Assembly: GCA_947496715.1 (NCBI GenBank)
Contig: CANMDT010000001.1
Coordinates: 1 to 64,000, forward strand
DNA length: 64,000 nucleotides
Source of the DNA: Myxococcales bacterium
Lineage (GTDB): Bacteria; Myxococcota_A; Bradymonadia; REDH01
Reading direction: 5' to 3'
The notes beneath the pieces are model-generated. The model searched no databases. It was given only the letters and a program-made list of their open reading frames with translations, and was not told the origin of the DNA. Positions 15,475-35,800 of this stretch are shown piece by piece. Position 1 is the first letter of the stretch, and each line of letters starts with the position of its first letter. Position numbers and translations under genes: made by a program.

Positions 15475-17315
15475 TGGCACTGATTCAACTCCGGGGGATT
15501 CATCTCTCATTTGGCTCGGCACCCGTGCTGAACGATACCTCGTTTTCCATTGAGCGGGGTGAGCGGGTGGGGTTGCTGGGCCGGAATGGCGCGGGAAAGA
15601 CGACGCTACTCCGCATGATTGAGGGCGTGCTGCTGCCCGAGCAGGGCGTGGTGGAGCGGCCCGATTCACTCCGTGTTGCGCGGTTGATTCAGGAGATCCC
15701 CTCGGACGACTCGGCCTCGGTCTGGGAGCTGGTGGCGGGCGCCTTCGGAAGCGCGGGGCGCGACGCTGCAGCGATGCGGGCCGGCGGCGATGCGATCGGA
15801 GACCCCTCAGCGGCCTGGGCCGTAGCACCCGCTGTCGAGACGGCTATCGCGCGGCTCGGCCTCGATCCCGACCAGCCCTTCGCGACACTCTCGGGCGGCC
15901 TCAAGCGGCGTGCCGCACTGGCCCGCGCGCTGGCCACCGACCCCGACATTCTGCTGCTCGACGAGCCCACGAATCACCTCGATGTCGAGGCGATCGAGCA
16001 GCTCGAGACGCTGCTCATGCGCGAATCGCAGCGCGGGCTGCTCTTTGTGACCCACGACCGGGCCTTCCTCGAGCGGATCGCCAACCGCATCGTCGAGCTC
16101 GACCGCGGCAAGCTGACCTCCTGGGATTGCGGCTACCGCACCTATCTGGAGCGGCGTGAACGGCAGTTGGCAGAAGAGGAGGCAGTGGGCATCCGGCTCG
16201 ACAAGCGCATCTCTGAAGAGGCCGAATGGGCGAGCAAGGGTGTGGCGGCGCGCCGGACCAAGTCGGTCGGCCGTCTCCGCGCGCTCGAACAGCTCCGTGC
16301 GGTGCGGGCCTCGCAGCGCAAGCGGCCGGGCGAACTCAAGATGGCCATTCAGGAGGCGGCGAACTCAGGCAAGCTGGTCTGTGAGACCCAGGCGCTCAGC
16401 TTCGGCTACGAGGGTCGTCCTCCGCTGATCCACGAACTCACCACCTTCATCATGCGCGGCGACCGCATCGGCATCATCGGGCCGAATGGCTGCGGAAAGA
16501 CCACGCTCATCCGCTGCCTGCTAGGCGAGCTCGAGGCGACCTCGGGACAGGTCCGCACCGGTACGCGGCTCGAGGTTGTCTACTTCGATCAGACGCGCGA
16601 GTGGCTCGACCCCGACCGCTCCGTCGTCGACACCGTGGCCGACGGCAACGACCGGGTCACGGTCGACGGCCGGCCCCGCCATGTGCACGGCTACCTGCAG
16701 GACTTCCTCTTCTCTTCGGAGCGTGCCCGTGTGCCGGTTCGACTCCTCTCCGGCGGCGAGCGGGCCCGACTGCTGCTCGCGCGCCTCTTCCTCAAGCCCT
16801 CGAATGTGCTTGTCCTCGACGAGCCGACGAACGACCTCGACACCGAGACGCTCGAGCTGCTCGAGCAGCTGCTGTCGAACTACCCGGGCACCGTGCTCGT
16901 TGTCAGCCACGACCGGGCCTTCCTCAACGAGGTGGTCACCAGCACGCTCGTCTTTGAGGGCGACGGCCGCATCGGCGACTACCCGGGCGGCTACGACGAC
17001 TGGCTCCGTCAGCGTCCCGAACCGGCCACGAAACAGAGTGAGAAGAAGGCCCTCATCGCCGCAGGGAAGCTCCCGGCGCCCAAGGTGCAGATGTCCTTCA
17101 AGGAGAAGAAGGAGCTCGAAGAGCTACCCCGCCGCATCGAGGTGCTGGAGAAGGAACAGAGCACGCTGAGCGCCCTGCTCGCTGACCCCGTCTTCTATGC
17201 AAAACCAGCGAGAGAGACCCGGCCGACCATGGACCGCGTGACCGCTATCGAAGCAGAGTTGGCCAAGATATACGTGCGCTGGGAGGCGCTCGAGGCGAAG
17301 GCGAACCCAGTCTAG
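15474..17315 (+). CDS. uup: ABC-F ATPase, Uup type
   Basis: A 613-residue soluble protein with two ABC cassettes and no membrane segment. Cassette 1 has GRNGAGKTT, LSGGLKRRAALARAL and LLLDEPTNHLD; cassette 2 has GPNGCGKTT, LSGGERARLLLARLF and VLDEPTNDLD. The linker between them is charged and helical (about 230-290). The C-terminal 80 residues form the coiled-coil arm typical of Uup (KKELEELPRRIEVLEKEQ). ABC-F proteins act on the ribosomal E site, and Uup also limits precise transposon excision and ribosome assembly defects in E. coli. The ATG overlaps the desaturase stop (TAATG), so the two share an mRNA. Confidence 0.94.
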   Translation: MALIQLRGIHLSFGSAPVLNDTSFSIERGERVGLLGRNGAGKTTLLRMIEGVLLPEQGVVERPDSLRVARLIQEIPSDDSASVWELVAGAFGSAGRDAAAMRAGGDAIGDPSAAWAVAPAVETAIARLGLDPDQPFATLSGGLKRRAALARALATDPDILLLDEPTNHLDVEAIEQLETLLMRESQRGLLFVTHDRAFLERIANRIVELDRGKLTSWDCGYRTYLERRERQLAEEEAVGIRLDKRISEEAEWASKGVAARRTKSVGRLRALEQLRAVRASQRKRPGELKMAIQEAANSGKLVCETQALSFGYEGRPPLIHELTTFIMRGDRIGIIGPNGCGKTTLIRCLLGELEATSGQVRTGTRLEVVYFDQTREWLDPDRSVVDTVADGNDRVTVDGRPRHVHGYLQDFLFSSERARVPVRLLSGGERARLLLARLFLKPSNVLVLDEPTNDLDTETLELLEQLLSNYPGTVLVVSHDRAFLNEVVTSTLVFEGDGRIGDYPGGYDDWLRQRPEPATKQSEKKALIAAGKLPAPKVQMSFKEKKELEELPRRIEVLEKEQSTLSALLADPVFYAKPARETRPTMDRVTAIEAELAKIYVRWEALEAKANPV

Positions 17316-17384
17316 CGCAGCGTCTCCGCGAACCTTCTCCCGCGGGGCTGCATCTCAGCGGATACACTCCCTGAGGACCATAAC

Positions 17385-18569
17385 ATGCGTCAGCTCTCCT
17401 TTACGCTGCTCCTCTGCCTTGTTGGGTGCTCCGACGAGTCTGCCGACCTTCCTGCAGGCAACGACGCCGGCGGCAGCACCGATACCGCCGAAGACGCCTC
17501 CGCGACCGACAGTTCGGCCGACGCGACGGATGGGTCAGGCGCAACGGACACCAGCGGCAGCGGCTCAGGAGAGCCCGCGCAGGGCATCATCTCCACGGAG
17601 AGTTTCCCGCTGCCCGAGAGCCTGCCCGGCGGCATCTTCATTCAGCCCCGACTTGTCTGTAGCCCGCCGGTGGCTGGCGACGCCCCCGCGGAGGGCGACT
17701 CGGTCTGTACCTACACCGCCATCTCGGCCTGCACCGAGCCCGGCCGCGACTTCGCCGACTACGGCCGCTGCGACATCGTTCGGACCCAGCGCCCCTACTC
17801 GGCGCAGCCTCCCGTTATCCGGAGTGACGCCGCCGACCCGCGGCTCGACGACCCTGCCTTCCTGTCGGAACTCGACTGGGTGACCTCGCAGGTCAAGGCC
17901 TGCGCCTGCGTCTGTTGCCATAGCTCGGAGCTGGCGCCCGAAGGCCCCTCCGACTGGCACCTCGAGGCCTCGGCCATCTGGACCGACTCGGTCTCTGACG
18001 ATGGCGTCGCGCTGCTCGCCGGGCTCGTCGATTCGTCTGCCTTCGGCGCCTATCCGCCCGAGCAGAACTTTGGCTTCGAGCGTGTTCGTACTGCGCTGCC
18101 GAGCACCGAGCCGGACCGGATGAAGACCTTCTTCCTGGAGGAGTATCTGCGGCGCGGCCACGTGGAGTCTGAGGCTGCGGCCATTGCACCCTTCGGCGGG
18201 CCGCTCGTCACCCAGGCCACCTACGAGCCCCGCGCCTGTGCCGGCAGCATCGGCGTAAAGGCCGATGGTACCATCCGCTTCACCGGCTCGGCCCGCTACC
18301 TCTACCTGCTCGAGATCGGCTCGGCGAACCCCGGCGTGCCGCCCAACCTCGACACCCCCGCCGGCACCATCTGGCGCGTCGATGTGCCCGAGACGGCTCC
18401 TGCGCTTCGCGGCGCGGTCACCTACGGCTTCGTCCCGGTCGGCGCTGCGCAGCGGGTCCCCGCCAGCGGTGCGCCTCGTGCGCTCACGGTGGGAGAGCAG
18501 GTCTACCTCTACACGCTCGCCGACGTGGGCCTGCCGCTGACGCGCTGCATCGCGACCGTCGCCCCCTGA
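17385..18569 (+). CDS. Lipoprotein with a CxxCH (possible haem c) motif
   Basis: A 394-residue lipoprotein: the signal ends in CLVGC, then an Asp/Ala/Thr/Ser/Gly tether runs to about residue 65. The body has many cysteines. Near residue 170 the run KACACVCCHSSE contains a CVCCH haem-binding consensus (CxxCH). A following segment, ASAIWTDSVSDDG with a conserved-looking PPEQNFGFERVRTA, might complete an unusual domain. I do not recognise a named family. Either a monohaem c-type protein or a metal-binding Cys cluster is possible; only the motif is visible. The gene lies in a run of exported proteins and seems to be its own unit. The start ATG is preceded by CTGAGGACC. Confidence 0.68.
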   Translation: MRQLSFTLLLCLVGCSDESADLPAGNDAGGSTDTAEDASATDSSADATDGSGATDTSGSGSGEPAQGIISTESFPLPESLPGGIFIQPRLVCSPPVAGDAPAEGDSVCTYTAISACTEPGRDFADYGRCDIVRTQRPYSAQPPVIRSDAADPRLDDPAFLSELDWVTSQVKACACVCCHSSELAPEGPSDWHLEASAIWTDSVSDDGVALLAGLVDSSAFGAYPPEQNFGFERVRTALPSTEPDRMKTFFLEEYLRRGHVESEAAAIAPFGGPLVTQATYEPRACAGSIGVKADGTIRFTGSARYLYLLEIGSANPGVPPNLDTPAGTIWRVDVPETAPALRGAVTYGFVPVGAAQRVPASGAPRALTVGEQVYLYTLADVGLPLTRCIATVAP

Positions 18570-18627
18570 GCTACTGCAAGGCCCCCTAGGCTCTGCTACT
18601 GCGTCTGCTTCCACCAGCGGAGGCCCC

Positions 18628-19857
18628 ATGCGCAGCCAGACTCTCACGCTCATCCTCATCGCCTTCACAGCAGGCTGCAGAGACGAGAGCGTCGGAACTG
18701 CCGACGCAGATACTTCGCTAGGCGCGGGAAGCGAAGACACAGGCACCAGCGCAGACACTGTCAGCAACGACAGCGGTGCAGACACGGGCAGCGAAGCCGA
18801 TGGCTCCGGCGAAGGCTCTGCGCAGCCTCTCCTGCCCTCGCTGCGCCTCCGCGGCCCGCACACCTTTGCCACCACCGCAGACGAGCTCGTGGACGAGACG
18901 CGGCCCTTCCCTGCCGGCTCCGGCGAGACAGCGGAGCCCCGCCGCCTGCCGGTCACCATCTGGCACCCCACCGATGCGGCTGCTCCCGGCCCGGTCATCA
19001 TCTGGGCGCACGGTCTTGGCAGCACTCGTTCGGACAACCGCAAGACCGCAGAGATCCTGGCCTCGCGCGGCTACATCGTGGCGGCCGCCGACTTCCCCAA
19101 GACCAACCGTCTCGCGCAGCCGCCCGATGTCGCCGATGTGGTGAACCAGCCCGGCGACCTCAAACTCCTCGCCGACCGGGTGCTCGAACTCGGCGCCACC
19201 GCCGGTTCGCCGCTCGAGGGCCGCGTTGACCCGGAGAAGATGGCCTATGTTGGGCTCTCTCTCGGCGCGATGACGGTCATGCTCGCTGCCTGGCAGACGG
19301 AGTTCTACGACCCCCGCATCGACGCCGTGGTCGCCCTCGCGCCACCCTCCTGTTACATGCCGCGCCCGCTCTTCGAGACGCCCGCCGTCCCGGCACTCAT
19401 CATGCTTGGAACGGGCGACGCCATCGTTGACTACGCCTCCAGCGTCGCCTCGTTCGCAGAGATTCCGGCGCCGTCGCTCGTTGTGTCTCTCGAGCGGGGA
19501 AGCCACACCGCCTTTGCCGATGTGGTGAGCGACTTCTTCAACAATGTGCCCCACCCCGACGTCATCGGCTGCTCGAGCGTGGTCTCGGACATCGATGTGA
19601 GCACCCTCGGCACGCTCGCTGAGTCACTCGGTGGCGCCTCCGCAGAGGTGGTCAACGCCGAATGTATCGCGCCCTGCTCGACGAATCAGACGGAGACACC
19701 TGCGATGCGGAGTGGCCGCCAGGCTGAACTTACGATCGCCTCGGTGGTCGGCTTCCTCGACGGCGTCTTTGTGCCGGGCGCGGCCTCCCTTGCCACGCTC
19801 GGAGCCGCGCTCGAATCCGAGCCCGACATCACGGTTGTGAGTCACCTCAACCCGTAG
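18628..19857 (+). CDS. Lipoprotein alpha/beta-hydrolase (PAF-acetylhydrolase/dienelactone-hydrolase-like)
   Basis: A 409-residue lipoprotein with signal end FTAGC, then an Asp/Thr/Ser/Gly tether to about residue 65. The hydrolase body shows PVIIWAHGLGSTR (oxyanion loop), the nucleophile elbow GLSLGAM, the acid region LGTGDAIVDY and the histidine in GSHTAFAD. A tail with three cysteines (IGCSS, AECIAPC) could form disulphides. The order and spacing fit serine esterases of the PAF-AH/chlorophyllase-like group. The substrate is unknown. A GGAGG lies upstream of the ATG. The next 490 bp downstream contain no intact gene. Confidence 0.85.
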   Translation: MRSQTLTLILIAFTAGCRDESVGTADADTSLGAGSEDTGTSADTVSNDSGADTGSEADGSGEGSAQPLLPSLRLRGPHTFATTADELVDETRPFPAGSGETAEPRRLPVTIWHPTDAAAPGPVIIWAHGLGSTRSDNRKTAEILASRGYIVAAADFPKTNRLAQPPDVADVVNQPGDLKLLADRVLELGATAGSPLEGRVDPEKMAYVGLSLGAMTVMLAAWQTEFYDPRIDAVVALAPPSCYMPRPLFETPAVPALIMLGTGDAIVDYASSVASFAEIPAPSLVVSLERGSHTAFADVVSDFFNNVPHPDVIGCSSVVSDIDVSTLGTLAESLGGASAEVVNAECIAPCSTNQTETPAMRSGRQAELTIASVVGFLDGVFVPGAASLATLGAALESEPDITVVSHLNP

Positions 19858-19890
19858 CCCCGCGCTTGGGTGCGGCGGCGATGGCCAGGC

Positions 19891-20181
19891 TTAGGGAGCG
19901 ACGATGCGGCCTGCTGTGTCGCCGTTGCCGCCGGGCGTGTGGCAGGAGTTGCAGTCGCCGTTACTGGTTTCGGTCTCCATCGCATAGGTCTGCCCGTTTA
20001 GGGTGACCCGTGCTGTGTAGGGCATGACGACGCGGGAGCTGAGCGTGCTGAGGTAGAAATTGCCGGCGCTGTTCGAGGTGAGGCGTGTCAGCGGAGCCGT
20101 TGATGTCGGCGCTCCTCAGTCACAATCGGGACCGCTCGAACCACTTGCGGTGTCAGTGCCAGAGCTGGCGGTGAGCTGCAT
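19891..20181 (-). pseudogene. Decayed gene for a CxxCH-type secreted protein
   Basis: On the minus strand one frame reads QLTASSGTDTASGSSGPDCD from 20181, then a TGA at 20118-20116, then continues in the same frame. The continuation has FYLSTLSSRVVMPYTA and RVTLNGQTYAMET and ends GDCNSCHTPGGNGD...GRIVAP at a TAA (19891). The first half looks like the Ser/Asp/Thr tether seen on neighbouring lipoproteins. The second looks like the C-terminus of a small secreted protein with a CNSCH motif. No lipoprotein signal is visible upstream, so this is most likely a remnant with a nonsense mutation. The rest of 19858-20350 holds only this remnant and the promoter of the next gene. Confidence 0.55.
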
Positions 20182-20301
20182 CGGCCTAATGCCGCGTCCC
20201 GATTTCGGAAGACAGTGCCGTTGCTGCGGTGCGGGGTTGCACATCCCTTCGAGGCTACCGACGCTGCGTCACGTCGAGCGAGGTGCTGCGATGGGACTTA
20301 G

Positions 20302-20331
20302 TTGACCCGCTCGCCGCGCGGAGGCTACTTT
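20302..20331 (+). promoter_or_regulatory. Strong sigma70-like promoter for the pseudokinase operon
   Basis: TTGACC at 20302-20307 and TACTTT at 20326-20331 with an 18-bp spacer. The predicted start near 20338 falls just before an AGGAGGT Shine-Dalgarno (20339-20345), so the leader would be only about 13 nt long. Confidence 0.6.
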
Positions 20332-20350
20332 GTGCATCAGGAGGTAGCTG

Positions 20351-23086
20351 ATGAGGGAGACCACCCCGGACAGGCTCGGCACCGGCGGGCAGCCCGCGGA
20401 GGGCGGCGAAGCGACGGTGGACGCGCGCCTCGGGACGGTGCTTGATACCTATCGGCTCGACGCCCTCATCGGCGAGGGGAGCGCGACACGGGTCTACCTC
20501 GGCACCGATCGGCGCGGTGCGCAGGTGGCCGTGAAGGTGCTCGACAGCAGGCACGCACGCGACCCGCGGATGCGCTGGCGCTTCTTCCGCGAAGCCTCCA
20601 TCTCCGAGCAGATCTCCCATCCTGCATCGCTCAAGTATCTGCGCAAAGATGTGACCCGTGAGGGCGACCCGTTTGTGGTGGTCGAGCTGATTCGCGGCGC
20701 GCATGGCGCGGCCGTCATCGCCGACGGTAGCGCTGGGCTGTCGGCCGTAACCGTGGCCTATCTGGGCCACATGGTGGCAGACTTCCTCGCCGCCTCGCAC
20801 GCGCGTCGCATCCTCCATCGAGGCGTTACGCCCAAGTGCATCGTCATCACAGATACCGGCCGCCTCCGGGTGGCTGGGTTCGCCGGCGCCTTCGTTGCGG
20901 ACGAACAGGCGGAGCAGAACTCCCCCGACCTTATCACGGCGCCCAGCGCCTGGCGGGCGCCCGAATTGGTCGGGCTCTGCGCCACGCCAGGCGACCCACG
21001 GAGCGATGTCTTCGGCCTGTCGGCGACCCTCTACTCGCTGCTCACGGGCCATCCCCCGAAGGTCTGGGCAGAGCAGAGTTGGCAGCTGTCGATCGAGGCC
21101 GAGCGGCTCGAGTTGGCGGCGGGCCCGGCGCTTGCGCGGATCCTGCTGCAGGGGCTGTCGGAGACGCCGCTTGGTCGGCAGACGAGCTGTGCGATCCTAC
21201 GCGACCAGCTGGCTGACTTTCTGGCAGCGGAGGGCGCGCCGGTGGTCACGGGCGAGCCCCATCCGGCGGAGGCCGCGCTGGCGGAGATCGGGGCGAGGTT
21301 TGCGGCGGCAGAGCGCGACATCCAATCCATCGACGCCAAGTCTTGGGAGACCGCGTCGAACCTGCGCGACCTGTTCCGGATGGTGGAGCACACGCTCTAC
21401 TCGATGCACCGGCACGGTTGGGAACATGCAGAGACCGAGAGCCGCGTCGCGGGGCTGCTGAAGTCTCTCCACGCCATTGTGGGTGAAGACGTGGACGGCG
21501 TGCATTGGCAGGTGCGACCCTACTCCTTTGAGTTCAACGGTGACTCCGTCTGGGAGCCTGCACCGCCCCACGACGCGGTGCCCTACAACCTCTTCGACGC
21601 TGGCTTTCGCGAGCTCAGCCTACTTCCGGGCTTCGACGAAGAGGAGCTCCGAAGCTGGCTGACCTGGCTCTACATCAATCCGTCGGTCGAACTCGCAGAC
21701 GAGGATGATCTCGCCACCGCCTTCTGGAACCTCGAGTTGCCGCACGCGCGTGCGAAACTGGTCAGCGCCGTCATCCTGCAGGACCTCAAGGAGTTCGAGG
21801 TGCTCGACCGCGAGCTGTCGGAGATGCAGACAGAGGCGCTCGCCACGCTCCGCGAGAGCATCCAGACCCGGATGCGCAAGCTCGGCGCGAAGCAGGAGCA
21901 GGCCGCCCCAACGCGGCGGCTGGGCGCGACAGACTTCGACATCAGCAGTCGGCCGGCGGCGGTGGCCATCCCCGAAGAGATGCTCGCGCTACTCCGCGAC
22001 GAACTCTTCGACTCCGAGGCAGAGCTCGGCGATGCGCTCGAGCACCATCTGGGCCGCACGCTGCTCGCGGTGATCATCGATGCGGGGCGTCACAACGACG
22101 AGGCGAGCATCATCGGCCACCTCGACAACCTGCTCGAAGACTGGGCGCGCCAGAAGAGTTGGCGGCGCATTCTCCGCCTTCACAGCTCCCTGCTTCGGCA
22201 CGACCCCGATGGCCAGACCGCGGCACCGCTGCTCGCTCGGTTCCTCGAACCGGCCATCTTGGCTGCAGTGCTGCGCGGCGTGAGTTCCGACCCAGATCCG
22301 GAGATTCATGTCCCCATCCGGCTCATGCTCGAGTCGCTGCACACGCTGCTGGAGCAGGCAGATGACGGCTGCTTCGACGAGGTCCTCGAGGCCGTCAAAC
22401 GGTGCGGGCTGCCCGACGCGCTCGACATGCTGCTCCACCATATCTCACGCTTCTCGGACGGGCGAGAGACGGCCATCGCCGCCATCCTCCCCGACGTCTT
22501 TCCCGCGCTGGGCGTCGGCCTTATCCGTGTGCTCGCGATGCATCCCACGCGTGCCTCCCTCAACGCTCTGCTGGCTGCCTACGCGAACGGCGCGCCGCAT
22601 GTGCGGCTCGAGGCGATGGATGTGCGGGCGCGACTGCTTCCGCAGGAGGTGACCGAGGAGCTCCGGCCGCTGCTCGATGATCGCGACCCGCGGGTGCGGG
22701 CGCGTGCCCACGAGATCGCCCGCAAGGCCAAGCTCTTCGGCCTCGCGTCGACGGTCATGGAGAAGCTGAACGGTCTCTCCTTCCACGACATGCCGCTCGT
22801 CGATCGTCATGCGCTGGTCACCACGCTCTTCACAATCGCGCCGGAGCAGGCAGAGGCCTTCTGCATAGAACTCGCCGCGTCGCACGGCTTCTTGGAGAAC
22901 CAGTCGCTCGATGTGAGCCGCAAACTCGCCGTCGACCTGCTCGCCGAGCACGCCCGCACGACCCAGGCAATCGAGGCCATCAAGGATGCCGCAAAGGGGC
23001 GCTGGTGGAACGCGCCCGAGCTGCAGGCCGCTGCGAAAGAGGCGGTGATCAAACTGACCGCGCGGCTCGGACCGGGGAGGGGCTGA
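20351..23086 (+). CDS. Ser/Thr pseudokinase fused to helical (HEAT-like) repeats
   Basis: A 911-residue cytoplasmic protein with a perfect AGGAGGT five bases before the ATG. Residues about 33-290 have a protein-kinase fold: P-loop GEGSATRVYLG (41-51), VAVK with K62, a helix-C Glu (E81) and the APE motif at 203-205. The catalytic loop reads HRGVTPKCI instead of HRDxKPxN, and the DFG motif reads AGF. The catalytic base, catalytic-loop lysine, loop Asn and metal-binding Asp are therefore all lost, while the ATP-site lysine stays. A middle region (about 330-450) resembles the N-terminal module of myxobacterial HEAT/HD proteins. The C-terminal third is alpha-helical repeats (about 600-905). It probably works as a scaffold or ATP-sensing regulator. 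It is coupled by TGATG to the next gene. Confidence 0.85.
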   Translation: MRETTPDRLGTGGQPAEGGEATVDARLGTVLDTYRLDALIGEGSATRVYLGTDRRGAQVAVKVLDSRHARDPRMRWRFFREASISEQISHPASLKYLRKDVTREGDPFVVVELIRGAHGAAVIADGSAGLSAVTVAYLGHMVADFLAASHARRILHRGVTPKCIVITDTGRLRVAGFAGAFVADEQAEQNSPDLITAPSAWRAPELVGLCATPGDPRSDVFGLSATLYSLLTGHPPKVWAEQSWQLSIEAERLELAAGPALARILLQGLSETPLGRQTSCAILRDQLADFLAAEGAPVVTGEPHPAEAALAEIGARFAAAERDIQSIDAKSWETASNLRDLFRMVEHTLYSMHRHGWEHAETESRVAGLLKSLHAIVGEDVDGVHWQVRPYSFEFNGDSVWEPAPPHDAVPYNLFDAGFRELSLLPGFDEEELRSWLTWLYINPSVELADEDDLATAFWNLELPHARAKLVSAVILQDLKEFEVLDRELSEMQTEALATLRESIQTRMRKLGAKQEQAAPTRRLGATDFDISSRPAAVAIPEEMLALLRDELFDSEAELGDALEHHLGRTLLAVIIDAGRHNDEASIIGHLDNLLEDWARQKSWRRILRLHSSLLRHDPDGQTAAPLLARFLEPAILAAVLRGVSSDPDPEIHVPIRLMLESLHTLLEQADDGCFDEVLEAVKRCGLPDALDMLLHHISRFSDGRETAIAAILPDVFPALGVGLIRVLAMHPTRASLNALLAAYANGAPHVRLEAMDVRARLLPQEVTEELRPLLDDRDPRVRARAHEIARKAKLFGLASTVMEKLNGLSFHDMPLVDRHALVTTLFTIAPEQAEAFCIELAASHGFLENQSLDVSRKLAVDLLAEHARTTQAIEAIKDAAKGRWWNAPELQAAAKEAVIKLTARLGPGRG

Positions 23087-25659
23087 TGGAGGCAGGAAGA
23101 CTCGACCCCGTCAGTATCCAGCGGACGCTCAAGCAGATCTACAGGCTCTTCCGCGTCGGCACCTTTCACCAGATCAACAACGATGCGATCCGCGCCGTCA
23201 TCGACGAGACACGGGCGATTCTTGAGGAGATCCGACGCGAAGATGTGAAGGAGATCACGCTGCTCTTCGACGGCGAGACCGTGTTGGTGAACAGCCAGAT
23301 GCTCCGTGCGAGCCGCGAGGTCTACGAGACCTCCCGCGAGTTCGGAACCTTCCTCGAGGGTCGCGGGGTCAACCTTCTCTCGCTCTCTACCTCGGCCGAC
23401 AGCCAAGACCTCCAGGAGCTGGTCGCCTTCTTCCTCGACCCCAGCCAGAAGCCGTCGGTCGAGGGCGAGGTGAAGTTGAGCGAGCGAGTCACGCTGCGGC
23501 GGGTTGAGCCGGGCATGCTGATTGGCTTCGAGGACGAGGGTCTGCACCCTGTGGAGCGGGTGTTGCTGGTCTACGCGCTCACGGTGCTCGTGCTGCGGCG
23601 GCTGCACGAATCGGTGATGGCGCAGGAGTACTCGCTCGCCGGCTACTTCAAGCGGCTCGCTCGCCAGATCGCGCAGATCAACTACGCGGAGCGGCCGGTG
23701 GTGCTGGACGTCATCCTCGCGGCCCATCTGAGCACAGACGACGCGAAGCGAACGGCCAACGCTGCCATCATCGCAGCGGCGATGGTCCGGCAAACGGGCG
23801 TATCGGAGGCCACAACGGCGCGGGTGGTCATGACGACATTCATGTCGGGCGTCGGCACGGCGCGGCAGCGCAGCCATTACTTCGACGGCAGCGACCCGCT
23901 CAGTGCACTGCTGCATCCCATCTCGGAGAGCGACCGCCAACATGAGCCCGACGGCGCGGCTGCCGCCGTCATAAGGCTCGGCACGCTGCGCGGCGAGGCT
24001 GCGCTTCGCTCCATTGTGGTGCGCGACGCGCGTGCCCGTCTCCTGGGAGAGGCCGACGGCGCCTGGCAGAGACTCTTCGAGTCGCGGGTCGTGGCGACCG
24101 CGCGCCGTTTCATCGATACCCTGACGGGCACGGCCATCGGACAACGCTCTCCGGGGCTGGTCCTCGAAGCGTTGCGGGCTCAGGCTGGCGACGCGCTCGA
24201 TCACCTCTGCCTCGACCTGCTCACCAACGGCATCCGCATCTACCCCGCCGGAACGAGCGTTGAGCTCTCCTCCGGCTGGCTGGCGCTGGTGCTCGAGGCG
24301 CCCTCCAAGCCCTCCGAATTCGACCGCCCGAAGGTGCTGCTCTGCCACGGCCCGGATGGTGCGGCGGCCGACCCACGCGAGGTCAACCTTGTGGAACGGG
24401 AGCATGCCGCGCTTGGCCATGTGAAGCGTATCGCGGAGGTGCCGACGCCTGTTTTGGAGCGACTACGCGCAGAGCGAATCGGAACGCGCTGGCTCGGCAA
24501 CGAGCGTAACGCCTCGGTCGCCGTCTGGCGCCAGCAGATGGCTGAGCAGCGTGCCTCGGCCGAGAACTTTAGAGCGGCGCTTGCGCAGGAGACAGACGCG
24601 GAGGCCGTCCAGCGCGATCAGGCCCGGCGCGCAGATGCCGAAGTCTTCGCGACAACCGCGGTCGAAGGGCGCCGCAAGTTCGGCCTGCTGACCAACATCA
24701 ACAAGGGTGCAGCCCACCTTTCGGTGCGGGGTACGACGGCCTTCTTGAAGATCAGCGGCCCGCTCGATCCGCGGCTTACCCCGACCTCGGCAGAGCCAGT
24801 CGTTTCTGCAGGAGGTTTGCGGAGCACGGGCGCCTTCGCGACGTTGTCTACGGGCTCGCACGAGGCCGTGGGTAGCCAAGGTAACAGCGAGAGGGAGTCG
24901 GCACGTTTCGCAGCAGTTCGAGGTTCGGGGAGCCATCCGCTGGTGCGCCGCAATGACGAGGGGAGTGGCGCCTACGGGTCGGTGGAGTCACGACAGACCG
25001 GCAGCTTCACCGCCGCGCCCTCCATGCCATCCGACCCGCTCGCGGCCGGTGCGAACTATGGAAGCCGCCAGACTGGCTCCTTCGTCGCAGCCGCGCATCG
25101 CTCGGGTTCCCACACGGCTGCGATCCCCGCCGCAGAGACGCTTCCGATGACGACAGCGCTGAGCGCCGATGAAGGATTGCCGGTGGCGGAACAGCATCCC
25201 GAGGCGCAGCCAGAGGTCGCGCCAAGTGAGCCACTCACCGCCGCCGATGTCATCAGACGGCGCCTCAGGCAAACCGCGCAGCTGCCGGCGGCAGCCTCCG
25301 TCACCGGCCGCGAAGCGACTTCCGAATCGGCGGGCAGCGATCGGCCGCGAACCGCCGCTATTCCGCCTGGGCTCGACCCTGAGTCTGTGCTGCGCGTGGA
25401 GACAGACCAACTCGCGCCCCCGCCCGCGCCTACCCCCACCCGCTCCACCGCAGCCCTACTCCGGAAGTATGCGCGGCGCATCGATGCCCAGCCTGCGGCG
25501 ACCGACGCGACGCCCGTGGTGACCGACGCGGCGCCCGTGGTGACCGACGCGACGCCCGTGGTGACCGACGCGACGCCCGTGGTGACCGATGCGACGCCGG
25601 CGGCGGCAACCGACCTCGACGCGCTCCTGGCCGCCTATCTCGGCGATAAGAAGCCCTAA
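23086..25659 (+). CDS. Degenerate HD-GYP-type protein with low-complexity tail
   Basis: The start is the ATG at 23086, overlapping the pseudokinase stop (TGATG). The 857-residue protein begins with a helical module containing ITLLFDGETVLVNSQMLR, as in myxobacterial HD-domain proteins. The next block follows an HD-GYP scaffold: the helix normally carrying HDIGK reads TTFMSGVGTA, and the HHE..DG.GYP region is gone. The later RPKVLL and IYPAGTSVELSSG segments that follow HD-GYP cores are retained. It is therefore probably unable to hydrolyse c-di-GMP. Residues 560-857 are disordered, Ala/Ser/Pro/Thr-rich, and contain GSRQTGSF repeats and five 7-residue TDATPVV repeats. It ends in a short helix (LDALLAAYLG) that may bind a partner. 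Confidence 0.78.
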   Translation: MEAGRLDPVSIQRTLKQIYRLFRVGTFHQINNDAIRAVIDETRAILEEIRREDVKEITLLFDGETVLVNSQMLRASREVYETSREFGTFLEGRGVNLLSLSTSADSQDLQELVAFFLDPSQKPSVEGEVKLSERVTLRRVEPGMLIGFEDEGLHPVERVLLVYALTVLVLRRLHESVMAQEYSLAGYFKRLARQIAQINYAERPVVLDVILAAHLSTDDAKRTANAAIIAAAMVRQTGVSEATTARVVMTTFMSGVGTARQRSHYFDGSDPLSALLHPISESDRQHEPDGAAAAVIRLGTLRGEAALRSIVVRDARARLLGEADGAWQRLFESRVVATARRFIDTLTGTAIGQRSPGLVLEALRAQAGDALDHLCLDLLTNGIRIYPAGTSVELSSGWLALVLEAPSKPSEFDRPKVLLCHGPDGAAADPREVNLVEREHAALGHVKRIAEVPTPVLERLRAERIGTRWLGNERNASVAVWRQQMAEQRASAENFRAALAQETDAEAVQRDQARRADAEVFATTAVEGRRKFGLLTNINKGAAHLSVRGTTAFLKISGPLDPRLTPTSAEPVVSAGGLRSTGAFATLSTGSHEAVGSQGNSERESARFAAVRGSGSHPLVRRNDEGSGAYGSVESRQTGSFTAAPSMPSDPLAAGANYGSRQTGSFVAAAHRSGSHTAAIPAAETLPMTTALSADEGLPVAEQHPEAQPEVAPSEPLTAADVIRRRLRQTAQLPAAASVTGREATSESAGSDRPRTAAIPPGLDPESVLRVETDQLAPPPAPTPTRSTAALLRKYARRIDAQPAATDATPVVTDAAPVVTDATPVVTDATPVVTDATPAAATDLDALLAAYLGDKKP
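25501..25605 (+). repeat. Five tandem 21-bp coding repeats
   Basis: Four near-identical copies of a 21-bp unit (ACCGACGCGACGCCCGTGGTG) plus a degenerate fifth encode TDATPVV heptapeptides near the C-terminus of the HD-GYP-like protein. Copies differ at single bases (gcg/gac changes), suggesting recent slippage expansion. Confidence 0.9.
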
Positions 25660-25716
25660 GGTCCGCACCCTCCGACCGCCGGCCGCATCTGATGAGCCGA
25701 GCAACGGAGCATCGCC

Positions 25717-27096
25717 ATGACCGCGACCAAAAAAGCCTTCCTCTTCCGAAGAGACCTTCGCCTCTACGACAACATCGGCCTAACTGCGGCGCTCGAGCAA
25801 GGTGAGGTGCTGCCAATCTTCTGTCTCGACCCGCGACAGGGGCCCGGCCACCGCTACTTCTCGACCTTCGGTTTCGGCTTCATGGCCGACGCACTGCGCG
25901 ACCTCGATAGCCAGCTCCGCACCCTCGGCTCGGCGCTCGAAATCCTCCCGATGCGCAGCGATGAGCTACCCGCCTGGCTCGAGAAGCGAGGCATCGGATC
26001 GCTGGTCTGGAACCGAGACTACACGCCGTTCAGCGTGGAGCGAGACGGCGCACTCGAGGCTGCCTGCCACGCGCGCGGCATCGAGACAGCTTCGTTCGAC
26101 GACTCGGTGCTGTATGAGCCGGGTTCCGTCAGGCAGCCCGGCGGCGACGGCTACAAGGTCTTCACGCCCTTCTACAAGCGGGCCATCACGCTGCCTGTCC
26201 CACGGCCACAGCCGCTTCCCGAGACGGCACGCTTTATCCCTGCCTCCGATGCGACCGCGGGGTGGGACCGGCTCACGGCAATCGAGGCAGCTTCCGGCCC
26301 CAAGCCGCGCCTCCGCGGCGGGCGCAAGACGGCCGAACTGCACCTGAGCCGAATCGAATCGCTCGTCGATTACGATGCGCTGCGGAACCTACCCGGCGTG
26401 GAGGGCACCACGGAGCTCTCGCCCCACCTCAAGTTCGGAACCGTCTCGCCGCGCGAGGTCTGCTGGCGCAGCCGTGACGCGCACGGACAGGGCCACGGCA
26501 TCGAGCGCGAGCTCCACTGGCGCGAGTTCTTCCTCCACCTCTGCCACCAGTTCCCGCAGGTCTATGGCCGCCCCTTCCGCCAGGAGTTCGAGGCCGTGGC
26601 CTGGCAGAACGACCCCAACGACTGGGCGCGCTGGGTGGCTGGCACGACGGGCTACCCCATCGTTGACGCCGGCATGCGTGAGCTCGCGCAGACGGGTTCG
26701 ATGCACAACCGGGTGCGCATGATCGTGGCCAGCTTCCTCGTCAAAGACCTGCTCATCGACTGGCGCGAGGGCGAGGCCTACTTCGCTCAAAAGCTGACCG
26801 ACTACGACCCAGCCGTGAACAACGGCTCCTGGCAGTGGGCGGCATCCACGGGCGCAGATGCGGCGCCCTACTTCCGCATCTTCAACCCGTGGCTGCAGCA
26901 GGTGAAGTTCGACACTGAGGCTTCCTACATCAAGCGCTGGGTGCCGGAGCTCGCATCCCTTCCAGCGGCGGACATCCACGCTCTCCTCGACACGCCCCCC
27001 CTCCGGCCCGAAGGCTATCCCGCTCCGATGGTGGACCACCGGATGGCAGCCGAAAGGGCGAAGGCGGCCTTCGGTGTGGCAGCCCGCCGCGAGTAG
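25717..27096 (+). CDS. phrB: Deoxyribodipyrimidine photolyase
   Basis: A 459-residue class I cryptochrome/photolyase. The N-terminal Rossmann domain starts LFRRDLRLYDN and carries the antenna-site region. The FAD-binding helical domain shows GTTELSPHLKFGTVSPREV, HWREFFLHLCHQFP, MRMIVASFLVKDLLIDWREGEAYF, NNGSWQWAASTGADAAPYFRIFNP and SYIKRWVPEL. These motifs, including the Trp-rich electron-transfer segment, match CPD photolyases that split cyclobutane pyrimidine dimers with blue light. The HTGADAAPYF-type region favours a repair enzyme rather than a DASH cryptochrome. The gene stands alone, about 57 bp after the HD-GYP-like gene. Confidence 0.95.
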   Translation: MTATKKAFLFRRDLRLYDNIGLTAALEQGEVLPIFCLDPRQGPGHRYFSTFGFGFMADALRDLDSQLRTLGSALEILPMRSDELPAWLEKRGIGSLVWNRDYTPFSVERDGALEAACHARGIETASFDDSVLYEPGSVRQPGGDGYKVFTPFYKRAITLPVPRPQPLPETARFIPASDATAGWDRLTAIEAASGPKPRLRGGRKTAELHLSRIESLVDYDALRNLPGVEGTTELSPHLKFGTVSPREVCWRSRDAHGQGHGIERELHWREFFLHLCHQFPQVYGRPFRQEFEAVAWQNDPNDWARWVAGTTGYPIVDAGMRELAQTGSMHNRVRMIVASFLVKDLLIDWREGEAYFAQKLTDYDPAVNNGSWQWAASTGADAAPYFRIFNPWLQQVKFDTEASYIKRWVPELASLPAADIHALLDTPPLRPEGYPAPMVDHRMAAERAKAAFGVAARRE

Positions 27097-27165
27097 CGCG
27101 AGGCTTGGCATCGGCCCGCCCTACGGTTAGCAGATCGGCATCAATCTACCCGCTCGGTGAAGCCC

Positions 27166-30100
27166 ATGACAACTCTCCGCTCCCTCCGTATCGCGCTCGC
27201 GCTTCCGCTCGCGCTTGCTGCCTGCAGCGATGATCCTGCGCGCTCCGGCGGAGGTACCGATACCTCCAGCAACACGCAGACCGACACCGCCATTATCGAC
27301 AGCGGTGCCGATTCCACCGTCGACAGCAGCTCCGGAGATACGTCGAGCGAAGACACCGAACTCCAAGACACCGCGCCCGATGGCTCCGGTGACACCTCCA
27401 TCGAAGACACCGCGCCCGACGGCTCCGGCGACACCGACACGGGAGACACCTCGCCACCGTCGACGGCCATCGTCATCAGCGAGCTGATGAAGGACCCCTG
27501 CGCCGTCTCCGACGGCGTCGGCGAGTGGTTCGAGGTCACCAACATCTCCGCCGCCCCCTACGATCTCCGCGGCGTGGTCATCTCGGACGACGGCAGCGAC
27601 AGCCATACCATCACCGGCGCCGATCCCATCCTCGTGACGCCAGGCGCAACCTTCTTGCTCGCTGCCAGCGGTGATACCGCCGTCAACGGAGGCCTCACGC
27701 CAGGCTACGTCTACAGCGGCCTGCTGCTGGCCAACGGCGACGACGCGATCGTCCTCACGGCAGCCGACGGCTCGCTGCTCGACGCCGTGCGCTACACCCG
27801 AACCGGCTTCCCCAACACAGCCTGCGCCTCACTCTCCCTCGCCGACGCCAGCGCCGGCAGCATCGCCAACGATGATGGCGCCGGCTGGTGCGACGGCTCA
27901 GCCCTCTACAACCTCCGCGACGCAGGCACGCCAGGCGCCACAAACAGCGCCTGCCCTGCGCCGCCCACGGTCGACCGCTGCCGCCTTGTTGCGCCAACCT
28001 TCCTCGAAGCGCGCCCCGGCGATGAACTCACCGCTGTCGCCTCGCTCATCGCTCCAGGACTCACCGACCGCTCCACCGCCACCGACACCAATGCGCGACT
28101 CCGGTTTGAGGTAGGCTTCGGGACGAGCGATACAACGCCGGACGCCGCTTGGATCTGGTCGCCCATCGCAGCCGACACGACCTGGGCCGAGTCCACCGAA
28201 GCAGCCCTCGACCAGTATGCCGGCACCTTCGCGGCGCCCACGACCGGAAGCTACGATGTCGCCGCCCGTGTCTCGCTCGACAACGGTCTCACCTGGACAC
28301 TCTGTGACCTCGCGGTCGACGGCTCAGACGGTTCGCTCGACGGCTACCAGCCGAGCAACGCCGGCAAGCTGACAGTGCTCGGCATCTGCGACCCCAACCC
28401 CTGTATCACCCCCCCTGCGACCATCTGCAACCTCGCCGGCTCGGGCATCATCTCCTACGGCGCGGGCAGCTGCACCGAGGTCGCCGGCCGCGGCGTCTGC
28501 GACTATCCCGCCACCCCCACGGCCTGCGCGCCGGGCCAGGTCTGCATCGACGCCATCTGTACCCAACCGCCCAGCGCGCCAACCGAGGCCGGTCAGGTGA
28601 TCGTCTCCGAGTTCATGCCCCAGTCCATCGGCGGCACAGACAACGGCGAGTGGGTCGAACTCCACAACACCACCACCACCGCCTTCAACATCCGGAACTG
28701 CATCCTCGGCGAAGGCACGACCGATGCCCACACCATCGCACGCGAACTGATCGTCCCTGCCGGCGGCTACCGCGTGCTCGCCCGGAGCGCCGACCCCGTC
28801 GCCAACCACGGCCTCACGCCAGACTACATCTATTCCGGCTTCAGCCTCCGAAACACCGCAGACAGCATCATCCTCACCTGCGCCGGCACCGAGATCGATC
28901 GCCGCGACTACACCGCCGCCGATGTACAGCTCGGCGTGTCGCGGCAGCTCGACAGCGACCACCTCGATGGCGCCGCCAACGATGTCGCTTTGAACTGGTG
29001 CGAGAGCCGCGCCACCTATGGCACCGCGGGCAAGTTCGGAACGCCCGGCAGCGCAAACCGGAGCTGCAGCCCGGACCCTGTTGCCGTGAACTGGTGCCGG
29101 CTCCAGGCGCCTGCATCGGCCGTCGTCACGGAGGGAACCTCCAGCAGCTGGTCGGGCCGCCTCTACATCGCCGGCCTCACCACGCTGACCACCGGCGTCG
29201 ACCCCTACGGCTCGCTTCGCGCGGAGGTCGGATTCGGCCCCGCCGACATCGACCCGACCAGCACGCCGACCGCCTGGAGCTGGGCCACCGCCCTCCCCAG
29301 CCCCGGCTATAACGCCACCACCGCCGGCGAGCCCAACAACGATGAGTATGTCGGGACGCTCGTCGCGCCGACGCCGCAGTCGAGCCGCGTCGCCTTCCGC
29401 TTCTCCGGCAATGGTGGCACCAGCTGGACCTACTGCGACCGCAACATCGGCGCCGGTGCCGATGGCGCAGAGAACGGCTTCGCGCTCGCAGACGCCGGCA
29501 CGCTGCTGAGCCTCTCCTCCGCAATCTGCGAACCCAACCCCTGCACCCTCCCGCTGCCTGACTACTGCGCAGACGGCTTCACCGCCGCCGCCTATCTGCC
29601 GACCGGCGTATGCGCGCCGCTCGCAGACGGAACGCCGGAGTGCACCTTTGAGACCACGCTCACCAACTGTCTCACCGCCGAGCAGCGCTGCAGCGGCGGG
29701 CAATGCGTAGACGCCGCGCCCGCTCCGTCGACGGCCGGCGCCCTCGTCTTCACAGAGGTCATGGCCGCCTCCCAGGCGGGCACTGGCGACCGCGGCGAAT
29801 GGTTCGAGATCTCCAACACCACCGCGGAGCCACTCGACCTCTCGCGCTGCACCATCACGGATGACGGCTCCGACATCCACGACATCGCCGGCCCCCTCGT
29901 CATCCCCGCCGGCGGCACCCTGCTGCTGGCCCGCTCCTCCAACACGGTCGAGAACCACGGCATCACCCCCGACTACACCTACGCCGGCATCACCCTCGGC
30001 AACACCGCCGACGCGCTGAATCTCACCTGTGACGGGCTGCTCATCGACCGCATCGCCTGGACAGCCGGCTTCAGCATCGCGGGAACTGCACGGCAGCTCG

Positions 30101-32964
30101 ACCGCGACCTCATCAACGCCGATGCGAACGACCTGCTCGACAACTGGTGCGCCGCCCGCGCCACCTACGGCACCGACGGCAAGTTCGGCTCCCCGGGCGA
30201 GCCCAACGCCAGCTGCGCGCCTGTGACCTACAGCATCGACTGGTGCCGGCTGCAGTACCCAACCGCCGCGCAGGTCACCGAGGGCAACGAGGTCACCGTC
30301 TATGGCCGCCTTTACATCGCCGGCCTCACCACGCTCACCATCGCCATCGACCCCGCAGCAGAGGTCTCGGGGCAGGTCGGCTACGGCCCGCGAGGCAGCA
30401 ACCCCGGCGACCCCGGCTGGTCCTGGTTCGACGCCACACCCAACGCCACCTGGGACAGCCTCTCCTTCTCCGAAACGGCGAACGACGAGTACCAGGCACA
30501 GCTCGCCGCGCCTGCCTTCGGAGCAACCAACAGCTACGATTTCGCCTTCCGCTTCTCAGGCGATTCCCGCGCAACCTGGACCTACTGCGACCGCAACGCA
30601 GGCGCAGGCTCCGACGGCGCGCAAGACGGCTATCAGGCAGCCAATGCGGGCCAGCTTTCGGTACTCTCTGCCGATATCTGCATCCCCAACCCCTGCGCGG
30701 CGCCACCGGCCAACAGCTGCATCAACAGCACCACCCTGCTCACCCAGCTCCCCGCACTCTGCTCGAACAACGGCGCCGGCGGCTTCACCTGCGACTACCC
30801 GACCAGCATCACCAGCTGCGCCGCGGACGAGGCCTGTGCAGACGGTGCCTGCGTCACCACCATCTTCGCACCCGCAGCACGCGGAGACCTCTACTTTACC
30901 GAAATCATGGCCGCCTCTGGGAGCACGGCTGGCGCCGACGCCGGCGAGTGGTTCGAAATGCGCAACGCCACCGCAGCACCCCTTAACCTCGAAGGCTGCG
31001 AGCTCAGCGATGCCGCCGCCACCACCCACATCATCGCCTCGACGCTGGTCGTCGGGGCGGGCCAGACCGCGCTCTTCGCACGCAACGCAGCAGAGGTTGC
31101 TCTGCTCGGCGCAACCGCGAACTACGAGTACCGCGGCATCGCCCTCAACAACACGGGCGAGTCGCTCTATCTGCGCTGCGGAGGCCTCCTTATCGACGAG
31201 GTGACCATCACGACGGCGCAGACGGTCCCCGGCACCGCCATCCAGCTCTCCCCTGCCGGCATTGGCGCCGATGCGAACGACACGGCGAGCAACTGGTGCC
31301 TCGCCAGCACGCCCATCCCGAGCTCCACACTGCTCGCCACACCCGGCACAGGCAATGCCCTCTGCGGCAACGAGCCGCTCACCATCGGCTGGTGCCGCCT
31401 GCAGTGGCCGCTCGACCCGACGGTTGCCGCCGGCACCTCCTTCACCACCTATGGCCGCCTCTACATCGCCGGCCTCACAGACCGCGACAACGGCAACAAT
31501 CCGGACGCCCGTATCACCGCACAAGCGGGATTCGGAGACCCCGGAACGCTGCCCGACACCGCCTCCTGGAGCTGGACCGGCGCGACCCCCGAGCTCACCT
31601 ACCCCGGCGCGAACGCCGAGGCTGCCAATGACGAGTACAGCACCTCGCTCAGCATCCCCGCAGACCGCGCCTCGAACGCCGACTTCGGCTTCCGCTTCTC
31701 GGGCGATGGAGGCACCACCTGGACCTACTGCGATCGCAACGCCGGACCCGACGCAGACGGCGCGGAGGGCGGCTTCCAGCCCGCCAACGCAGGTCACGCT
31801 TCCGTCACGGGCGCCTGCGCTCCCAACCCCTGCCTGAGCGTCCCCGCCGACGGCTGCGCAGACGGCACCACCGTGCGCAACTACAGCCCGACCGGAACCT
31901 GCTCCATCCTCTCGGGGAGCGCGAGCTGCGACTACACCTACCTCGACACCGCCTGTGGCTCAGGCCTTGTCTGCCTCGCCGGCGCCTGTTCCGCACCGCC
32001 CCCGCCCATCGCTGCGGGCGAGATTGTCTTCACCGAACTGCTCGCGCGCGGCTCCCAGATCGCCGACAACGCAGCGGACGACCTCGACGAGTTCATTGAA
32101 CTCTACAACACGACCAGCCGCTCGATCGACCTCGCCGGCTGCACGCTGGATGCCACCGGTTCTGCGTCGGGTCTCACCCGCTTCACGCTCCCCGCAGGCA
32201 CCGTTCTGCCGGCCGCAAGCTATCGCGCCCTCTTCCGCGCAAGCGCCACCGCCACGCGGCCTCCGGGTAGCCTCTCGGTCGTGGGGCTCTCGCTGCCCGA
32301 TGATGTCACCACGCTCTCGCTCACCTGCGCCGCCACGGTCATCGATGGCGCCACCATCTCGGCATCGCTCGTCTGGGCAGGCGTCGCAGCGCAGCTCGAC
32401 CCCACCCGGCTCAACCTCGCCGCCTCCGACAGCGCCGCAGACTGGTGCGCCGCCTCCACCGGACTCGGCTCTCAGCTCCTCGGCACGCCAGGCACAGTAG
32501 GTGGCCCCTGCCCCACCGGCACCATCACAGGCGGCCAGTGGTGCAGGCTCCAATATCCGACAGACATCGATACCACGGCGGGCACCTCCGTCGCACTCTA
32601 CGGCCGTATCTACCTTGACGGCATCTCCACCCGCTCCGACGCGGTGAATCCGGACCCGCGCCTCCGCCTGCGCTGGGGCTTCGGCCCCGCAGGATCAGAC
32701 CCGGCCGCCGGTGGCTGGACCTGGAAAGCCGCCGTCCCGAACGCCTTCTGGAACGCTGCCACCGCAGGCGAACCCAACAACGATGAGTACTGGGTCGAGA
32801 GCTCCATGCCCGCCGCCTCCGGCTCGCCCTACGCCCACGCCTTCAGCATGAGCCGCGATTCCGGCGCCACCTGGATCTACTGCGACCGCAATGCCGGTGG
32901 TGGCTCCGATGGATACGCCGACGGCTACCAGACCGCGAACGCCGGTTCGCTCCTCGTGCGATGA
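27166..32964 (+). CDS. Giant lipoprotein with five lamin-tail-domain repeat units
   Basis: The start is the ATG at 27166 (GGTGA upstream; the track GTG start adds three residues). The product is 1,932 residues with a lipoprotein signal ending in LALAAC. An Asp/Thr/Ser/Gly tether extends to about residue 100. The body is a fivefold repeat. Each unit has a lamin-tail domain (e.g. VISELM...GEWFEV, ...SDSHTI), then a WCRLQ...GRLYIAGLT...NDEY...WTYCDRNAG module. Between units lie four cysteine-rich linkers starting C.PNPC. Lamin-tail domains in bacteria are often attached to secreted nucleases or surface proteins, but no catalytic domain is visible here. It probably forms a long rod on the outer surface; the function is unknown. 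Confidence 0.88.
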   Translation: MTTLRSLRIALALPLALAACSDDPARSGGGTDTSSNTQTDTAIIDSGADSTVDSSSGDTSSEDTELQDTAPDGSGDTSIEDTAPDGSGDTDTGDTSPPSTAIVISELMKDPCAVSDGVGEWFEVTNISAAPYDLRGVVISDDGSDSHTITGADPILVTPGATFLLAASGDTAVNGGLTPGYVYSGLLLANGDDAIVLTAADGSLLDAVRYTRTGFPNTACASLSLADASAGSIANDDGAGWCDGSALYNLRDAGTPGATNSACPAPPTVDRCRLVAPTFLEARPGDELTAVASLIAPGLTDRSTATDTNARLRFEVGFGTSDTTPDAAWIWSPIAADTTWAESTEAALDQYAGTFAAPTTGSYDVAARVSLDNGLTWTLCDLAVDGSDGSLDGYQPSNAGKLTVLGICDPNPCITPPATICNLAGSGIISYGAGSCTEVAGRGVCDYPATPTACAPGQVCIDAICTQPPSAPTEAGQVIVSEFMPQSIGGTDNGEWVELHNTTTTAFNIRNCILGEGTTDAHTIARELIVPAGGYRVLARSADPVANHGLTPDYIYSGFSLRNTADSIILTCAGTEIDRRDYTAADVQLGVSRQLDSDHLDGAANDVALNWCESRATYGTAGKFGTPGSANRSCSPDPVAVNWCRLQAPASAVVTEGTSSSWSGRLYIAGLTTLTTGVDPYGSLRAEVGFGPADIDPTSTPTAWSWATALPSPGYNATTAGEPNNDEYVGTLVAPTPQSSRVAFRFSGNGGTSWTYCDRNIGAGADGAENGFALADAGTLLSLSSAICEPNPCTLPLPDYCADGFTAAAYLPTGVCAPLADGTPECTFETTLTNCLTAEQRCSGGQCVDAAPAPSTAGALVFTEVMAASQAGTGDRGEWFEISNTTAEPLDLSRCTITDDGSDIHDIAGPLVIPAGGTLLLARSSNTVENHGITPDYTYAGITLGNTADALNLTCDGLLIDRIAWTAGFSIAGTARQLDRDLINADANDLLDNWCAARATYGTDGKFGSPGEPNASCAPVTYSIDWCRLQYPTAAQVTEGNEVTVYGRLYIAGLTTLTIAIDPAAEVSGQVGYGPRGSNPGDPGWSWFDATPNATWDSLSFSETANDEYQAQLAAPAFGATNSYDFAFRFSGDSRATWTYCDRNAGAGSDGAQDGYQAANAGQLSVLSADICIPNPCAAPPANSCINSTTLLTQLPALCSNNGAGGFTCDYPTSITSCAADEACADGACVTTIFAPAARGDLYFTEIMAASGSTAGADAGEWFEMRNATAAPLNLEGCELSDAAATTHIIASTLVVGAGQTALFARNAAEVALLGATANYEYRGIALNNTGESLYLRCGGLLIDEVTITTAQTVPGTAIQLSPAGIGADANDTASNWCLASTPIPSSTLLATPGTGNALCGNEPLTIGWCRLQWPLDPTVAAGTSFTTYGRLYIAGLTDRDNGNNPDARITAQAGFGDPGTLPDTASWSWTGATPELTYPGANAEAANDEYSTSLSIPADRASNADFGFRFSGDGGTTWTYCDRNAGPDADGAEGGFQPANAGHASVTGACAPNPCLSVPADGCADGTTVRNYSPTGTCSILSGSASCDYTYLDTACGSGLVCLAGACSAPPPPIAAGEIVFTELLARGSQIADNAADDLDEFIELYNTTSRSIDLAGCTLDATGSASGLTRFTLPAGTVLPAASYRALFRASATATRPPGSLSVVGLSLPDDVTTLSLTCAATVIDGATISASLVWAGVAAQLDPTRLNLAASDSAADWCAASTGLGSQLLGTPGTVGGPCPTGTITGGQWCRLQYPTDIDTTAGTSVALYGRIYLDGISTRSDAVNPDPRLRLRWGFGPAGSDPAAGGWTWKAAVPNAFWNAATAGEPNNDEYWVESSMPAASGSPYAHAFSMSRDSGATWIYCDRNAGGGSDGYADGYQTANAGSLLVR
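27469..32961 (+). repeat. Five roughly 1.13-kb degenerate coding repeats
   Basis: Lamin-tail units begin near 27469, 28594, 29740, 30880 and 32010, a period of about 1.13 kb. The paired WCRLQ/YCDRN modules repeat with the same spacing. Copies 2 and 3 look closest (ANHGLTPDY versus ENHGITPDY); copy 5 is the most divergent and longer at its start. Confidence 0.85.
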
Positions 32965-34729: not shown

Positions 34730-35800
34730 CTACGCGTCTTTGATGAACTCCACGATCTGACGCAGCTCGGGCTCCGCGCGCATCGCTGCATCTATGAGTC
34801 GTGGGTCGAAGGCGGAGCCGGCCTCCAGGCGGAGTTGCGACATTGCCTCCCCCCACGCCAGACGAGCGCGGTAACTCCGCGGCGCCGTCATCGCGTCCAG
34901 CGCATCGGCGATCGCTGCCACGCGGCCCTCCAGCGGAATCGCCTCTCCCTGCAATCCGTGCGGATAGCCCCCACCATCCCATCGCTCGTGGTGAGACCGC
35001 GCCATGCGCACCGCCGAGTCATCGGCGAGCGCACCGCCACGCGCGAGCAGCCTGGCCCCCGCCTCGCAGTGACCGCGCATCCGCGAGACCTCCTCCGCGG
35101 TCCAGACCCCAGCCTCCAACCGGAGCGCACCGACCATCTCGATCATCCCGATGTCGTGCCACGGTGAAGCTCTGCGAATCCCCTCAACCTCCGTCGGTGT
35201 GCAGCCTGCCGACGCAGCGATGGTGACAGCATACCGTGCGAACCGATCGCCATGCATCGAGCCGCTCTCCACGCCGCCCTCTATGCCACTGGCCACCGAG
35301 AGGGCATGCGCCTCGTAGACCGTCCGCTGCGACTCCATCGCGCTGGCCAGCAGCTCCTCCTTGTTGCGCGACGCAAACCACTGGCCCGTACCGGTCGCGC
35401 CGCCGCTCCGAAGCGCCGACCGCAGCCCGCGCATCTCCGACGACTTCCGCATCGCGATCTCCACCGTGCAGATGAGCAGAGAGGGCTCGAACGGTTTGAT
35501 GACCAAGCCGTGGATACCGCCGCGGACAAGCTGTTCCAGCACCTCCAGCTCGCTCTCCGCGGTCATCATCACTACGGGCGGCGCATCGAGATCGTCCCGC
35601 AGCGCAGCCACCAGCACATCGCCGTCTTGCCCCTTCATGCGCAGGTCGCTCACCACAACATCCAGCAGGCTCGATCCGATGAAGGCCAGCGCGCTCGCCA
35701 CATCGTTGCGAACCGTCACCGCGTGACCTCGACGCCGCAACAGCAGCGCCACAAGATCTGCAACCAGCGTGTCATTATCGACGACCAGTATTCTACCCAC
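34730..35800 (-). CDS. Response regulator with HD-GYP c-di-GMP phosphodiesterase domain
   Basis: I place the start at the GTG at 35800 (AAGGGAG upstream, VGRILVVDND at the receiver start); the track adds 32 poorly conserved residues. The roughly 356-residue product has a receiver domain (VVVSDLRM phospho-acceptor Asp, MMTAES, IKPFEP) and a C-terminal HD-GYP domain. The latter has WHDIGMIEM, GHCEAGARLL, HHERWDGGGYP and VAAIADALDAMTAPRSY. The HD, HHE and GYP elements are intact apart from HDIGM for HDIGK, so it should hydrolyse c-di-GMP under phosphorylation control. It is divergent from the REC-kinase gene and probably receives phosphate from one of the neighbouring kinases. Confidence 0.9.
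   Translation of the reverse strand: MGRILVVDNDTLVADLVALLLRRRGHAVTVRNDVASALAFIGSSLLDVVVSDLRMKGQDGDVLVAALRDDLDAPPVVMMTAESELEVLEQLVRGGIHGLVIKPFEPSLLICTVEIAMRKSSEMRGLRSALRSGGATGTGQWFASRNKEELLASAMESQRTVYEAHALSVASGIEGGVESGSMHGDRFARYAVTIAASAGCTPTEVEGIRRASPWHDIGMIEMVGALRLEAGVWTAEEVSRMRGHCEAGARLLARGGALADDSAVRMARSHHERWDGGGYPHGLQGEAIPLEGRVAAIADALDAMTAPRSYRARLAWGEAMSQLRLEAGSAFDPRLIDAAMRAEPELRQIVEFIKDA

Follow-up and report, generated by a model that had tools for sequence, protein, structure and literature searches.

A conserved gene pair for a HEAT-repeat protein and an HD-GYP-derived protein, both apparently non-catalytic in one genus of Myxococcota_A

The window, a 64,000-nt stretch of a Myxococcales bacterium genome (contig CANMDT010000001.1, positions 1 to 64,000), carries two plus-strand genes whose products resemble a protein kinase and an HD-GYP phosphodiesterase, and both products lack the catalytic motifs of those enzymes. 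Are these genes decaying, or is a pair of pseudoenzymes kept for something other than catalysis? The first gene, P1 (20351..23086), was delimited from its open reading frame, Pfam and family profiles. It encodes 911 aa with a pseudokinase, a domain shared with the second protein and a HEAT-like region. The second, P2 (23086..25659), delimited from its frame, a family profile and a metal-ligand alignment, encodes an HD-GYP-derived protein of 857 aa with a long tail. The frames overlap by one base, as a preliminary description had reported. In the junction TGATG (23084..23088, +), the shared A ends the P1 stop codon and begins the P2 ATG. A longer GTG start of P2 is mechanically available; the family alignments start near the ATG. 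The preliminary description had also put the pair behind the best promoter of the plus strand, and this claim was not borne out: a promoter scan of 17000-27200 gave no sigma-70-like site on that strand. A ribosome-binding site, AGGAGGT (20339..20345, +), does precede the P1 ATG.

P2 of the window had no Pfam match by itself. We therefore relied on a family profile (A1) of 20 P2 homologues, none of which has a complete HD-GYP site. Against the PDB, profile positions 231-409 matched the HD-GYP chains 5z7c (E 5.6e-8), 4r8z and 4mcw, and with E allowed up to 1, 10 of the 20 members matched Pfam HD_5, the best of them at 3.4e-5. A relative from the phylum, L076, matched the phosphodiesterase PmGH (4mcw) at E 8e-19. 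We then followed the metal ligands H..HD..H..HH..D, a motif defined as in PMC8177086, through the family alignment. Every ligand was present in L076, L079, L082 and L083. L084 has HN in place of HD; in family f6 only the first His and HD remain, and in family f2 HD is lost. In window P2 the degenerate domain (about residues 155-381; 23548..24228, +; profile and alignment) has none of the ligands and no GYP loop, and the whole site is gone throughout the window genus. The earlier idea of an HD-GYP scaffold without HD or GYP motifs thus agrees with both the profile matches and the ligand alignment.

P2 shares its domain ancestry with the HD-GYP phosphodiesterases PmGH (4mcw), 4r8z and the cGAMP phosphodiesterase 5z7c. 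It differs from them in lacking any ligand or GYP, in an additional domain at its N-terminus and in its long tail. Bd1817 of Bdellovibrio is, according to the available part of PMC8177086, an HD-GYP protein with a degraded GYP and no c-di-GMP activity that binds two irons. It resembles window P2 as a natural HD-GYP protein without canonical activity; however, its two irons are still bound, whereas the P2 ligands are gone, and that part of the source mentions no HEAT partner for it. One could suppose that the degenerate domain of P2 binds a cyclic dinucleotide without cutting it and that P1 relays the signal. The HD-GYP ancestry of P2 favours such a receptor, as do 10 GGDEF and three HD_5 matches in the genome, but the metal ligands and GYP loop by which known HD-GYP enzymes hold their ligand are all replaced in window P2, and we regard this role as unlikely.

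The tail of P2 (residues 461-857; 24466..25656, +) was already described as long and repetitive. Genus comparison identified it as low-complexity and as the fastest-evolving part of the protein, and a repeat scan located a seven-residue tandem repeat in it (21 nt x 4.7 copies; 25500..25598, +), with fewer copies in L001. Weak DUF4388 (PATAN) matches were found in the C-terminal P2 tails of L067, L070, L071, L072 and L074, TPR matches in the tails of L071 and L072, and DnaJ plus TPR in L078. Such domains in some tails of the kinase-bearing clade described below hint at adaptor roles. A link to motility or polarity, considered from the DUF4388 tails and an MglA-like gene near L023, was rejected, as the window tail has no such domain.

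The kinase-like domain of P1 covers residues 34-290 (20450..21220, +; Pfam, alignment, dN/dS). Residues 34-238 matched Pkinase (PF00069) at E 2.1e-18 (67 bits; cut-off 31.7). For the defence kinase MAD6 the score was 76 bits where the cut-off is 460, and we read that match as one to kinases in general. For motif assignment we aligned P1 with 12 intact kinase-HEAT relatives encoded in other genomes. The alignment confirmed that the ATP (beta-3) lysine, K62, is retained within VAVK, and the APE motif is retained too. It also confirmed that HRD is replaced by HRG (156-158, with G158) and the loop Asn by C163. The reading of AGF for DFG proved to be one residue out of register, since DFG aligns with GFA (G176-F177-A178). 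The four species sampled from the genus (the window, L001/L088, L089 and L090) all show the patterns HRG[VI][TS]P[KE]C and [AT]GFAG, and three of the four carry Asp at the position of the alpha-C Glu. Outside the genus, HRDxKPxN and DFG are intact in 12 of 12 homologues that carry a kinase domain. Judged by motifs, both P1 and P2 are probably catalytically inactive; kinases with altered motifs can retain unusual activities.

The frames of P1 and P2 are open in all four species. Within the genus, dN/dS was 0.091-0.094 for the kinase domain in three comparisons; for P2 as far as residue 460 it was 0.05-0.22. The losses are common to the four species and kinase dN/dS is about 0.09, so they do not reflect recent decay. 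The site is lost and the domain is nevertheless under purifying selection; the domain is therefore most likely an allosteric or docking pseudokinase. An alternative is an unconventional enzyme: with ATP bound, the kinase domain would carry out a different reaction, such as nucleotidyl transfer, or a weak phosphotransfer with migrated residues. Other chemistries do occur in some kinase-fold proteins, K62 is retained and the domain is strongly constrained. The base, the metal Asp and the loop Asn are, however, gone in 4/4 species, and three of them have Asp for the alpha-C Glu; we judge this alternative improbable. PMC12599244 describes the bacterial pseudokinase families ActPs1-3, GLW, CP1, DLHK and DYD, which have a kinase fold and have lost catalytic motifs, as P1 has. 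P1 differs from them in keeping the ATP lysine with the HRD Asp, the loop Asn and the DFG Asp lost. A term search of this 2025 review gave no mention of Myxococcota, HEAT or HD-GYP.

One of the two proteins had been called helical-repeat-rich; for P1, the family profiles point to such repeats in the C-terminal half. The HEAT-like region (residues 543-910; 21977..23080, +; Pfam and family profiles) is weak in P1 itself (HEAT at E 0.01, below the Pfam cut-off), but HEAT_2 was matched in 11 of 12 P1 family members, with a best E of 9.6e-11. In the P1 family this half is like HEAT-repeat proteins (PF13646); unlike them, the family has a shared N-terminal domain in front and, in one clade, a kinase domain.

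Between its kinase-like and HEAT-like parts, P1 has a segment of about residues 329-472 (21335..21766, +) that is homologous to residues 6-144 of P2 (23101..23517, +). A comparison of the two alignments (39 and 43 rows) with hhalign gave a probability of 97.2 and E 2.9e-11. Seven control comparisons gave 0.2-0.8%, and an earlier run on smaller alignments gave 89.6%. Pfam searches of the P1 and P2 families reported no family for this domain. Structure predictions of P2 1-460 (mean pLDDT 41) and of P1 (mean pLDDT 38) were discarded as low-confidence. A heteromer formed through paired copies of the domain would be the natural arrangement, and the shared N-terminal domain makes a non-catalytic signalling complex, as first proposed for this locus, more plausible.

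We next considered how far the pair is kept together. Of 43 loci, 41 have a homologue matched by the P1 profile immediately upstream of P2; at the other two (L020, L080) the contig ends there. The junctions often overlap by -4, -1 or -8 nt, most commonly as a 4-nt ATGA-type overlap. In 57 genomes of the class, 42 strong P1 matches adjoin P2, 5 more lie within 1.5 kb of it and 8, mostly at contig edges, have no P2 partner; the profiles came from paired loci, and the class-wide search itself ignored position. P2 relatives were found in 34 of the 57 genomes with a single sequence as query and in 45 with the profile. In the window's family, genome searches of two further genera did not find P2. 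The gene pair is thus old and found across the phylum. The literature searched held no description of such a pair or of its shared domain, and the pair is apparently undescribed so far. In paralogous pairs at G041:C77, G044:C91, G047:C42, G052:C17 and G053:C62, the matched parts of P1 and P2 are about 0.9-1.5 kb apart. Genes flanking the pair members indicated no pathway. Downstream of the pair in the window is a lipoprotein-like ORF of 1935 aa with several repeated blocks (27157-32964, +).

P1 and P2 could also be co-expressed and act separately, with the conserved order reflecting shared regulation only. The spacing in some paralogous pairs agrees with this; but adjacency is near-invariable across the phylum, the frames overlap and the two proteins have a domain in common, which makes separate action rather improbable. 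Pseudogenisation, with the missing catalytic residues of both proteins as its first signs, is very improbable and largely refuted by the open frames in four species and by dN/dS, which ruled out recent decay. The proposal of two pseudoenzymes made together is in line with the motif loss in four of four species, the purifying selection, the kept adjacency and the overlapping frames.

In a maximum-likelihood tree built from 43 P2 proteins, in which several branches are long, all kinase-bearing pairs, the window genus included, grouped in one clade of 16 (support 100/99). Every P2 of this clade has a dead HD-GYP site, and the pairs in which a complete HD-GYP site was seen all lack a kinase. The pattern fits a history in which the phosphodiesterase site would have been lost and the kinase gained at the base of the clade, after which the window genus would have lost the kinase site. 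Because the kinase gain and the HD-GYP loss coincide in a single clade, what links them is about one event, which is no statistical proof. The HD-GYP site is dead throughout the clade, an old loss, whereas the kinase site died only in the genus; the two losses thus differ in age, and neither is recent. The preliminary description had held that close homologues with intact motifs would point to random decay in this genome only. Inside the genus none was found, which favours its proposal; outside, the 12 kinases are all intact and a few HD-GYP sites are complete, which does not. In family f2 (nine loci), the pairs have neither activity by motifs and no kinase domain at all; a doubly non-catalytic pair is therefore not unique to the window.

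We consider it reasonably probable that the pair is an old two-gene module that is mainly a binding or scaffold device, a P1-P2 heteromer with a docking pseudokinase in the window genus. A non-catalytic scaffold or allosteric relay is likewise the reading of its function that we favour, with some confidence. The module would consist of a HEAT-repeat protein, P1, followed directly by the HD-GYP-derived P2. The proteins would most likely form a heteromer via the shared N-terminal domain and the HEAT surface, and would act chiefly by binding or scaffolding rather than enzymatically. A complete phosphodiesterase site survives in a few relatives; most have lost it or keep part of it. The Ser/Thr kinase domain fused to P1 in one clade presumably linked the complex to phosphorylation, as input or as output. 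In the window genus that kinase has lost its catalytic base and metal-binding Asp, with the domain kept under purifying selection. From sequence, a physical association of P1 and P2 and a role in signalling are what we infer. A wider claim is that throughout the phylum the two proteins are subunits of a signalling module, joined by the newly found shared domain, that enzymatic activity in it is optional and has been exchanged in evolution (from phosphodiesterase to kinase to none), and that selection keeps the non-catalytic complex; this claim is tentative and may well not hold.

Across its relatives the module forms a natural series, in which the gene pair has a complete HD-GYP site, a partial one, an intact-looking kinase beside a dead HD-GYP site, or neither. 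With this series one can address directly how a signalling pair functions after catalysis has been removed, and whether pseudoenzymes retain the regulatory core of their ancestors.

Other signalling genes were seen in the same genome. A response-regulator/HD-GYP protein encoded in the window at 34730-35896 (-) has an apparently intact site (WHDIG, HHERWDGGGYP), and its gene adjoins a divergent receiver/histidine-kinase gene at 35948-37168. The window genome (G000, a 3.56 Mb draft) has 45 Pkinase matches besides those to GGDEF; it is rich in Ser/Thr kinase signalling and probably in c-di-GMP signalling too.
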